A stretch of 64,000 nucleotides of DNA, from contig NZ_BPLK01000001.1 of the NCBI RefSeq assembly GCF_019656215.1, positions 1-64,000 on the forward strand, in the 5' to 3' direction. The notes beneath the pieces are model-generated. The model had not been told where the DNA came from. It did no database searches and saw nothing but the letters and a program-made list of their open reading frames with translations. The translations under genes and the position numbers were made by a program. Position 1 is the first letter of the stretch. Every line of letters begins with the position of its first letter. This stretch comes from Apilactobacillus zhangqiuensis. GTDB taxonomy: Bacteria > Bacillota > Bacilli > Lactobacillales > Lactobacillaceae. Shown piece after piece: positions 7,679 through 50,131 of the stretch.

Positions 7679-7708
7679 AAAAAGGACTGACAGATGTCAG
7701 TCCTTTTT
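7679..7708. terminator. Bidirectional terminator
   Basis: AAAAAGGACTGACA-GA-TGTCAGTCCTTTTT is a 14-bp stem. It ends the thiamine operon and the convergent minus-strand membrane gene. A near copy lies at 8746-8777. Confidence 0.88.
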
Positions 7709-8645
7709 ATTTTGACAGTTTTTTAAAGATTTTTGAATACACGTTACGTAGTAAAAATCTCAAAGAAATCATTAAAAAAATAAGTATTACTATTTCAATA
7801 ACAAAATGAATAGCCGTGGAGTCAATAACTATGTCATTTTGTTTAATAACGGAACGTTTGGATAAATAAATTAAATGATTTTTAATATCAAAAAAATTAA
7901 ATAAACAAATAGATAATATATAAGATAATTCCAGTAATAGTATTAAAATTTTTATTCTGGTCAATCTACCATCCATTTTTTCTATTAATTTAGCTATTTC
8001 AACATCACTAAATAAATTACTTGAAAAAATCTGAACCATATAAAAAAATTCTTTCGTTCCAACCAAAGAAATTATGATTGTAAGAATAGCTGTTATCATT
8101 GATCCGTTAGCATCAACCTGAATAACAAATACTATGAGAGAAAAAACAGCAACCATTAATAATTTTAAAAAAAATCTACCAATCTTTTTATTGTAGACAT
8201 TCTTATAATCAGTTGGCAAAATAGCTGGATTAAACATATAAGATAACCACCAGAAACAAAAGGTCGTAGTCATAATTTCAAAACTGTAAGAAAGATAAGC
8301 AGCTATTTCATTATCAAAAACAAAGTAAAATGCAGTAATAAGACATAAAAAATGTAGTAATATCGTCAGATCAAGCATCCATAGTTTTTTATTTTTAATT
8401 TTCCAAATGCAACATCCAACTGCAAAGCTTATAGCAATAAAAAAACTCGAAGCAACTAACATCCATAAATTTTTATTCTGTCTAAGAGATGCTATAAAAA
8501 AAGCGACTATCATGAAAGCAGCATACAATCCGCCAAAAACAAATATTATTTTATGCTCTGCCTCTATATCTCCATCTTTATTCAATAAAGCTACTTGATA
8601 ATCAATCCATTTAATCGATTTAATAATCCATTTAATAATAAACAA
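7707..8645 (-). CDS. Unknown polytopic membrane protein
   Basis: About 310 residues with roughly eight hydrophobic helices, an Asp/Glu-containing first loop (LLNKDGDIEAEH) and a charged cytoplasmic segment (DVEIAKLIEKMDGRLTRIK). I recognise no family. Composition is conspicuously A+T-rich compared with neighbours, and the gene is bracketed by near-identical terminators, which may mean acquisition. The first canonical start (TTG at 8645) directly abuts GGAGG (8650-8646), leaving no spacer. ATT at 8639 has the proper 6-base spacing, so the true start may be an AUU. Confidence 0.6.
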   Translation of the reverse strand: MFIIKWIIKSIKWIDYQVALLNKDGDIEAEHKIIFVFGGLYAAFMIVAFFIASLRQNKNLWMLVASSFFIAISFAVGCCIWKIKNKKLWMLDLTILLHFLCLITAFYFVFDNEIAAYLSYSFEIMTTTFCFWWLSYMFNPAILPTDYKNVYNKKIGRFFLKLLMVAVFSLIVFVIQVDANGSMITAILTIIISLVGTKEFFYMVQIFSSNLFSDVEIAKLIEKMDGRLTRIKILILLLELSYILSICLFNFFDIKNHLIYLSKRSVIKQNDIVIDSTAIHFVIEIVILIFLMISLRFLLRNVYSKIFKKLSK

Positions 8646-25090: not shown

Positions 25091-25120
25091 AAAAAAAGAG
25101 CGAATTTTTTCGCTCTTTTT
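25091..25120 (-). terminator. Terminator after TSUP permease 1
   Basis: AAAAAGAGCGAA-TTTT-TTCGCTCTTTTT; on the minus strand it ends the TSUP gene. Confidence 0.85.
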
Positions 25121-25946
25121 ATAGAAAGTGGACATGATAAGCAGATACGAATTGAGTATAAGCTAAAATCAACGCTAAGATTCCTGTTGCTATCTTGATA
25201 AATTTAACTGGTAGGACACGAACAATCTTTGGTCCGATATATCCACCGATGAAAAAACCAACTCCTAGTGGTAAAACTAAGATCCACACAACGTGTGAGA
25301 AGAATGAATAGTAGACGGTTGCGACAATGTTCGCAGCTCCCATGGCTACATTTCTAATTGCGTTACTTACGGTGTATTCATTATATGTAGTTCTAGTTAG
25401 TAGGACTAATAATAAAATTCCTGATGCAGCGCCAAAATAACCGCTGTAAGCACCAATTAAATATGTAAGGACAATGATAGTAATGTTTTTCAACCAAGTC
25501 CATGGCGTATCTTTTTTGGCTGCAGGGTTAAAGTTCAATGCACCCTGAGTATTTTCGTTAACTTCTTTCTTGTCTGGAAGTAAAATCATTAAACCACCAA
25601 AGGCAATAAAGAATGGAACGATATGGGTAAAACTAGATGATGGTAAAGCAGTTAACAAAATTGCTCCTGTAATTCCACCAAAGAAGATGATAACCATAAC
25701 CTTGAACAATTCCTTCCAGTGGCCCCTAAGCTCACGGGTGGAAGAAATACATGATCCAACAGCGTTAAACATTAGTGATGCTTTGTTAACAACGTTGGCA
25801 GAAACAGCAGGTAATCCAGCAAAGTATAACAATGCGGGATAGGATACTAGTGACGATAAACCGGTAACTGTTCCCAATATTCCAGCCACGATTCCGACAG
25901 GAATAAACAATAAAATAATCCAAATACTTACACCTAAAATAGTAAT
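25119..25946 (-). CDS. TSUP-family permease (TauE/SafE), copy 1
   Basis: Sulfite/sulfur-compound exporter-type membrane protein, about 275 residues and eight helices, with the family repeats FIPVGIVAGILGTVTGLSSLVSYPALL and GYFGAASGILLLVLL. The first canonical start is TTG 25910, with no SD. The frame continues upstream to a TGA with sequence ITILGVSIWIIL that aligns with the same extension of copy 2 (13 of 18 identical across the junction). The start is therefore placed tentatively at ATT 25946; the SD there is weak (GAGAAG). Substrate unknown. Confidence 0.8.
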   Translation of the reverse strand: MTILGVSIWIILLFIPVGIVAGILGTVTGLSSLVSYPALLYFAGLPAVSANVVNKASLMFNAVGSCISSTRELRGHWKELFKVMVIIFFGGITGAILLTALPSSSFTHIVPFFIAFGGLMILLPDKKEVNENTQGALNFNPAAKKDTPWTWLKNITIIVLTYLIGAYSGYFGAASGILLLVLLTRTTYNEYTVSNAIRNVAMGAANIVATVYYSFFSHVVWILVLPLGVGFFIGGYIGPKIVRVLPVKFIKIATGILALILAYTQFVSAYHVHFL

Positions 25947-26070: not shown

Positions 26071-26916
26071 TTAGAAGAAGTAGAATAGGTGAATACCATA
26101 AGCTGACACGAATTGAGTGTATGCTAGGTATAGAGCTAAAATACCAGTAACAATCTTGATTAACTTAACTGGTAATACACGAACCATCTTAGGTCCAACA
26201 TAACCACCAATTAGGAAACCAATACCTAGAGGAATAGCTAATGCCCAATAGATGTGGGTGCTACCGTGTTGACCATACTTGAATGAGTATAGGATAGTAC
26301 CGATAACGTTAGCTGAACCCATGGCAACGTTTCTAATAGCGTTGTAAACAGGGAATGGATCTTTACTTGTTCTTGATAGAACGGCTAATAGGATAACCCC
26401 TGCGGCAGCACCAAAGTAACTACCGTAGATACCAATAATGAAGAATAGAACAATCATACCGAAATCAACAAGCATTTTCTTTGAGCCAATGTTGTCTTCT
26501 TCAACTACCTTAGCAGTAGGTGCCTTAGTAGTGTCCTTGCTTGGTAATAAGATACCAATACCAGCAGCTGCAATAAATACAGGTACTGCGTATTCAAAGT
26601 CTTTTGATGGTAAGTATGTTAATAGAATAACACCAACGATACCACCGAAGAAGATGATAGTCATAACTTTGAATAGTTCCTTCCAGTGTCCATCTAATTC
26701 GCGCTTTGATGAAACAGCTGAACTTACTACGTTAAATAGTAATGCGGAAGTGTTAGTAATATTTGCTGAAATTGGGTTTAAAGCACCCCAATATAATAGC
26801 GCTGGGTATGAGGCAAGTGACGCTAATCCAGTTACAGTACTTAAGATACCGGCAACGATACCAACTGGAATGAATAATAGCAATGTCCATACACTAAAAC
26901 CAAAAATAGTGATAAT
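26071..26916 (-). CDS. TSUP-family permease (TauE/SafE), copy 2
   Basis: About 281 residues, paralog of copy 1 with the same eight-helix plan (FIPVGIVAGILSTVTGLASLASYPALL, SYFGAAAGVILLAVL and GGYVGPKMVRVLP). The nearest canonical start, TTG 26883, cuts into helix 1 and is 39 bases from the only SD. AAAAGGAG lies six bases before ATT 26916, and the frame after it (ITIFGFSVWTLL) matches copy 1. No ATG, GTG or TTG occurs between the upstream TAA and TTG 26883. An AUU start at 26916 is the best fit. Confidence 0.82.
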   Translation of the reverse strand: MITIFGFSVWTLLLFIPVGIVAGILSTVTGLASLASYPALLYWGALNPISANITNTSALLFNVVSSAVSSKRELDGHWKELFKVMTIIFFGGIVGVILLTYLPSKDFEYAVPVFIAAAGIGILLPSKDTTKAPTAKVVEEDNIGSKKMLVDFGMIVLFFIIGIYGSYFGAAAGVILLAVLSRTSKDPFPVYNAIRNVAMGSANVIGTILYSFKYGQHGSTHIYWALAIPLGIGFLIGGYVGPKMVRVLPVKLIKIVTGILALYLAYTQFVSAYGIHLFYFF

Positions 26917-41289: not shown

Positions 41290-41315
41290 GAAAAATCAAT
41301 AAGGGGGAGTTAATC

Positions 41316-42744: not shown

Positions 42745-42855
42745 ATCAATCATTCTCCCTGAATAAAAACAATTATGTTTATTTTGAAACAATATGGTAG
42801 TACTATTTATGAATAACTTATTTATAACTTATTACTTTAGAGAAAGGGAGTCAAC

Positions 42856-43551
42856 ATTATCGACGCACCTCACCCCGCCCGATTCGGTGAAAAAATATCA
42901 ACGGCATTCTTTTTAACCTCCATTGGTGGTTGCCTGGATGCCTATACTTACATTGAACATGGTGGAATATTTGCAAGTACCCAAACGGGGAATTTAATTT
43001 TGTCCGCTTTAGCGTTAACACAGTTCGATTATGGTCACTTTTTAGAAAGAATTTTACCGGTGATTGCTTTTTCAATCGGTATTTTACTGGCTAATTGGAT
43101 CCACCATAACCTTGATAAATATAAACTAAACTACTGGAAGGTCTACATTTTGGCCATTGAAATTGCAGTCTGTACAATTGTTGGATTTCTGAAGTACAAC
43201 GTTCCACAATTAATGATTACTACTTCAATGTCATTAACGACCGCCCTTCAACTTTCAACATTTAATACAATGTCTGGATTGGGATACTCAAACATGTTTA
43301 GTACCGGAAATCTCCAAAAAACAATGAATAATCTATTCTTGTATTTAGAGACCAGAAAAAATGAATTCAAAACAAAGCTACTTTACTACGGTGGCCTGGT
43401 TCTAAGTTTCCTATGCGGAGCTTTTGAAGCCAGTATCCTATCACTTTTCTTCCATACTAAGACCATCTGGGTTGTTGGTTTGGAATTAATCGTCATCCTA
43501 GTATTTCAAATTAGATGCATCATTATCTATCGACATGAAAACCAACTATAA
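42856..43551 (+). CDS. YoaK/DUF1275-family membrane protein
   Basis: About 231 residues and six helices. The N-terminus carries the family hallmark FFLTSIGGCLDAYTYIEHGGIFASTQTGNLIL. The first canonical start, TTG 43000, would delete this entire region. Upstream the frame is open back to a TAG at 42838-42840 and contains no ATG, GTG or TTG. GGGAG (42846-42850) is five bases before ATT 42856 and eight before ATC 42859. AUU/AUC initiation is therefore the best explanation. Function of the family is unknown. Confidence 0.8.
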   Translation: MIDAPHPARFGEKISTAFFLTSIGGCLDAYTYIEHGGIFASTQTGNLILSALALTQFDYGHFLERILPVIAFSIGILLANWIHHNLDKYKLNYWKVYILAIEIAVCTIVGFLKYNVPQLMITTSMSLTTALQLSTFNTMSGLGYSNMFSTGNLQKTMNNLFLYLETRKNEFKTKLLYYGGLVLSFLCGAFEASILSLFFHTKTIWVVGLELIVILVFQIRCIIIYRHENQL

Positions 43552-49722: not shown

Positions 49723-50131
49723 CATTTATCAACGCATTATCATACAAAAAGCCAGTGAGTGTCCCAACAACAAACAATTCGATTCAGACGTTCACCTAAC
49801 TAACCCCACCTGTGGTGATGACATTATGATGGCTTCAGATGAAAAGAAACCAAACTTAACCAATTTAAAAGTTGTTTGCGACGGCTGCATTATTTGTAAG
49901 GGTGCCACTAAGATGATGCTAGAAGCAATTCAAGATAAATCCACTGATCAAATCAATGAATTAGTCCTAAACATGTCCAAAATGATGACACACGAAGATT
50001 TCGATGAAACCTTGTTGGGTGATCTAGTTGCCTTTCAATCCGTCGTCCACCTACCAATCAGGATTAAATGTGCCATGCTTCCCTTCAAAGCAATTTATCA
50101 ATTAATTAACGGAGATGATATCAATCGATAA
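49709..50131 (+). CDS. sufU: Sulfur-transfer protein SufU
   Basis: 140-residue zinc-dependent sulfurtransferase that accepts persulfide sulfur from SufS. Zinc ligands fit NPTCGDD (Cys and Asp), CDGCIICKG and the C-terminal RIKCAMLPF cysteine. The family's GxGCSIS segment is altered to DGCIICKGATKMM, adding a second cysteine. It lies between sufS and sufB with overlaps on both sides. Confidence 0.94.
   Translation: MDLSNIYQRIIIQKASECPNNKQFDSDVHLTNPTCGDDIMMASDEKKPNLTNLKVVCDGCIICKGATKMMLEAIQDKSTDQINELVLNMSKMMTHEDFDETLLGDLVAFQSVVHLPIRIKCAMLPFKAIYQLINGDDINR

Follow-up and report, generated by a model that had tools for sequence, protein, structure and literature searches.

The DUF1275 gene in the window (by which we mean the whole analysed stretch of 64,000 nucleotides) raises a simple question: at which codon does its translation start? 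The host is a bee-associated lactic acid bacterium. It belongs to the kunkeei group of Apilactobacillus; among named records, A. nanyangensis, A. kunkeei and A. waqarii come closest to it (97-98% protein identity). The DUF1275 frame has an in-frame stop codon (TAG, 42838-42840) directly ahead of AGAAAGGGAG. The Shine-Dalgarno (SD) core GGGAG, at 42846-42850, is followed by TCAAC, by ATT and by ATC, with a spacing inside the usual range of this genome. The first in-frame ATG, GTG or TTG after the stop codon is TTG 43000, located inside the conserved DUF1275 domain. We propose that the gene is most likely read from ATC 42859, that near-cognate starts of this kind are found in about 2% of conserved genes in the genus, and that expression from them would be low and sensitive to IF3. 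For this explanation as a whole, we estimate a probability of about 0.85. The features concerned are collected in Table 1.

Table 1. Positions of the DUF1275 gene, its translation signals and four further genes with candidate near-cognate starts
Feature	Position	Strand	Remarks
Shine-Dalgarno AGAAAGGGAG, DUF1275 gene	42841..42850	+	duplex -8.5 kcal/mol; conserved in 6/6 orthologues
DUF1275 (YoaK-like) membrane protein, 230 aa	42859..43551	+	Pfam match; purifying selection
ATC, most likely start codon of DUF1275 gene	42859..42861	+	ATG in G002 and G013
ATT one codon upstream of ATC 42859	42856..42858	+	alternative start or spacer; GTT in G011
TauE/SafE transporter 1	26071..26916	-	ATT 26916 / ATC 26913 start; no well-placed normal start, 14 genomes
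TauE/SafE transporter 2	25119..25946	-	probable ATT 25946 start, weak SD
Small zinc-ribbon protein, one membrane helix	41313..41576	+	ATC 41313 or ATC 41316 start
Singleton membrane protein	7707..8639	-	probable ATT 8639 or ATT 8636 start

The product matches DUF1275 (PF06912) with an E-value of 1e-37 and 130 bits against a Pfam cut-off of 25.4, and the match starts well ahead of TTG 43000. Over codons 3-48, which precede this TTG, the gene differs from that of the sister species G002 by 25 synonymous and a single nonsynonymous change, and this stretch is therefore translated. A preliminary description of the locus had noted the arrangement GGGAG-N5-ATT before a conserved N-terminus, had assigned the 48 codons before TTG 43000 to the DUF1275 N-terminus, and had named ATT 42856 and ATC 42859 as the only starts left by the upstream stop. 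All of this was borne out, the last point by the lack of any ATG, GTG or TTG from TAG 42838 to TTG 43000.

The choice between ATT and ATC was guided by the DUF1275 orthologues, which are present in six genomes of the genus. Behind the same SD, the start pair reads ATT-ATC in three of them, GTT-ATC in one (G011) and ATT-ATG in two (G002 and G013, whose orthologues are 86-87% identical), so that at codon 42859 four species have ATC and two have ATG. The aligned ATG and the fitting SD spacing favour ATC 42859 as the start, and this codon rather than ATT 42856 most likely begins the gene. Comparisons with the three other ATC species yielded 50-54 synonymous against 4-6 nonsynonymous differences, indicating that selection persisted after the ATG had been lost. 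As for the ATT in the spacer, it is uninformative alone, since 21% of 335 normal genes carry ATT, ATC or ATA immediately before their true start; for the same reason, tandem isoleucine codons were dropped as a signal. The weight of the case lies in the missing normal start, in a decoy-controlled excess of such starts and in aligned start replacements. A second DUF1275 paralogue, found in G008-G010, has an apparent ATT start too (GGAG-N9-ATT AAT AAG).

The excess was measured in samples of 464 kb (this genome), 400 kb (G006 and G015, each) and 200 kb (G009 and each of five genomes from outside the genus). Since antisense shadow frames and conserved leaders dominated an initial list built with blastp, it was replaced by SD and decoy tests. 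Each candidate start received a score from its SD energy, its codon and the coding potential, one extra codon family being allowed at a time, and the expectation was taken from fourteen decoy codon families. Among 1,261 genes of the four Apilactobacillus genomes, 33 had ATT, ATC or ATA with an SD and without a competitive normal start, against 7.3 expected (P 3e-12, a value that overstates independence because the four genomes share ancestry); part of these 33 are background or doubtful, for example sufB. The recurrence of AUU initiation suspected in the preliminary description is thus supported, such starts being more numerous than expected by chance. The decoy test errs on the cautious side: of the five window genes, it recovered only one. 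In the five genomes from outside the genus, 13 such starts were found against 6.3 expected, and five of these were infC; without infC, the counts were 29 in Apilactobacillus and eight in the other genomes, the latter being little above expectation. The contrast between the two groups gave a Fisher P of 0.017, calculated on four versus five partial genomes, and the four Apilactobacillus genomes scanned all carry the IF3 change described below, unlike G012 and G014. The SDs of near-cognate genes were marginally stronger than normal (median -10.05 vs -8.9, P = 0.05). ATC/ATT starts would be kept in roughly 2% of conserved Apilactobacillus genes, for soluble as well as membrane proteins. In sufB itself (window positions 50106-50124), ATG 50115 overlaps the SD (GGAGATG) and ATC 50124 stands at SD distance, a layout also seen in G015 and G009.

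Aligned starts provide stronger evidence than these counts. Five more genes have an aligned ATG, GTG or TTG start in relatives and ATC or ATT in one or more Apilactobacillus; because start columns aligned automatically proved noisy, we cite no case that had not been inspected by eye. The ypsA gene starts with ATC in this genome, with ATG in G015 and G009 and with TTG in G006. In G006, ATC begins a methyltransferase gene (ATG in this genome and G009, GTG in G015) and one further gene (ATG in this genome), and ATT begins a thioredoxin gene (ATG in G015). In the case of rluD (G000:C3:88814), 14 of the 16 Apilactobacillus genomes have ATT after AAGAGATGGTGATTTAG, with an almost constant SD context; in G012, G014 and most of the other genera seen, an in-frame ATG lies close to this position. 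On this alignment, the rluD ATT is a conserved, derived, putative non-canonical start. The change of the third base alone matches the prediction of fMet-tRNA initiation at a near-cognate codon.

The same feature had been claimed for four other sites in the window, and for these the outcome was graded. The case for ATT 26916 of TauE/SafE transporter 1 is strong, as an SD followed by ATT-ATY (ATC or ATT) is kept in 14 of 14 orthologues in the genus. The case for site 41316 is good: ATC, ATA or ATT follows an SD in seven genomes, and the encoded protein has a Zn_ribbon_3 match below the curated cut-off. ATT 8639 is a plausible start of a singleton gene without orthologues or Pfam family, in which TTG 8645 abuts the SD. 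Weaker is the candidate ATT 25946, where the SD reaches -5.2 kcal/mol and two relatives possess an in-frame ATG.

As for the mechanism, SD pairing would put AUC or AUU in the ribosomal P site, and in the DUF1275 gene ordinary SD-guided initiation with fMet-tRNA would take place at ATC 42859 or, less likely, at ATT 42856. The CAU anticodon of the initiator would pair with the first two codon bases and leave a mismatch at the third. Such a weak start may cut expression to a fraction of the AUG level, for which a good SD would partly compensate. A low yield is expected by analogy with S. aureus, where AUU and AUA reporters gave about 10% of AUG expression (PMC13009471). Weak pairing at the third base is selected against by IF3 (PMC10158994), which makes dependence of these starts on the IF3 level likely; weak starts in E. 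coli, S. aureus and Streptomyces have been shown to be sensitive to it.

Several other explanations have to be weighed against initiation at ATC 42859 and at similar codons elsewhere. TTG, with about 10% of starts, is an ordinary start codon of this genome, and the DUF1275 gene might begin at TTG 43000 behind an untranslated leader. However, this start would fall inside the conserved domain, and the supposed leader shows the coding selection given above, forms part of the domain and follows ATG in G002 and G013; we consider this possibility close to refuted. Sequencing error could be suspected in a window that comes from an 8-contig assembly, but the DUF1275 codons recur in three to four species whose genomes were assembled separately, and those of rluD and TauE in 14, by which error is refuted, with practically no chance left to it.

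Loss of the normal start could also be a sign of decaying or switched-off genes, as a weak start should lower expression. Against this, the reading frames have stayed intact and purifying selection has continued since the change, the rluD ATT has been retained in 14 species, and infC is essential in studied bacteria, so that decay is very improbable. A dedicated regulon, in which AUU/AUC starts couple a set of membrane proteins to the IF3 level, is suggested by the five window genes, all of them predicted membrane proteins, and by the repression of a weak start by IF3 in another system (PMC5472188). The preliminary description had likewise proposed a membrane-protein class. Outside the window, however, more than half of the genes encode soluble proteins (among the soluble ones are rluD, ypsA, infC, the methyltransferase and thioredoxin), and the overall proportion of membrane proteins is seven of 18 vs a background of 30% (P = 0.44). 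A membrane-specific set was therefore rejected, the five window genes representing a local cluster, and the regulon is improbable. Initiation at near-cognate codons in genes of both kinds remains our preferred reading.

Natural AUU starts behind strong SDs have been known from E. coli, where infC begins with AUU and is autoregulated by IF3. The statement that AUU initiation of this kind had not been described was thus too strong: an AUU start of E. coli pcnB is cited in PMC13009471, S. aureus possesses conserved starts with strong extended SDs in cvfC1 (AUU), ccpN (AUA) and infC (AUA) (PMC13009471), and in Streptomyces the GTC start of sigR is repressed by IF3 (PMC5472188). The E. coli genes resemble ours in keeping a natural AUU start in a functional gene, but they are isolated genes, whereas in Apilactobacillus about 2% of conserved genes would have such starts, and AUC would be used as often as AUU. 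S. aureus is likewise a low-GC Gram-positive with conserved non-canonical starts, and its cvfC1, like the window gene at 41313, encodes a small putative zinc-finger protein; yet there are four sites genome-wide, none of them AUC (PMC13009471), while we find many more, infC being the sole common gene. The sigR start similarly keeps expression low, but it is another codon, and the effect of IF3 was demonstrated there (PMC5472188), whereas in Apilactobacillus it is a predicted one. A survey that also counts start-codon switches among related genomes reported a single switch to AUU among 61,358 ancestral AUG starts and did not list AUC (PMC5622118); here, by a different method, several AUC/AUU switches occur in about 1,200 genes.

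The density of AUC/AUU starts in Apilactobacillus is therefore far above the isolated cases known elsewhere. Our literature search returned no paper linking this genus with start codons, and as far as it shows, the density of near-cognate starts, the frequent use of AUC and the recurrent replacement of ATG by ATC or ATT in one genus are new. Should the excess prove real, Apilactobacillus would offer a natural test of how strictly the third base of start codons is checked by IF3 and the ribosome, and would help to tell whether selection favours weak starts or just tolerates them. Since gene finders usually accept ATG, GTG and TTG only, such genes would be truncated or missed.

Finally, we compared the initiation machinery. 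The start of infC is ATA, as usual across the order. IF3 of this genome (G000:C3:53588), G006, G015 and G009 contains KPMVAKV, and the motif KPMVAKV(L/I)DYGK is present in most Apilactobacillus seen, while G012, G014 and most other genera have KPPVA; the clade thus carries one specific Pro-to-Met substitution (KPPVA to KPMVA). On little data, this change coincides with the ATG-to-ATT change in rluD, which we regard as a lead, not a cause. That third-base start discrimination is relaxed in Apilactobacillus, possibly via KPMVA, with AUC and AUU serving as routine minor starts genome-wide, may be considered but seems doubtful. As for the initiator tRNA, its core GGGCTCATAACCC is absent from G000 and G007, both assemblies probably being without these tRNA genes. 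A 17-base anticodon arm of the initiator taken from the lactobacillus G023, TCGGGCTCATAACCCGA, is absent from all 16 Apilactobacillus genomes, while GGGCTCATAACCC is present in 14 of them, usually twice (for example G015:C1:497430-498047), from which it follows that an outer stem pair differs. An altered anticodon stem was rejected as a candidate, the three G:C pairs being intact in these 14 genomes.
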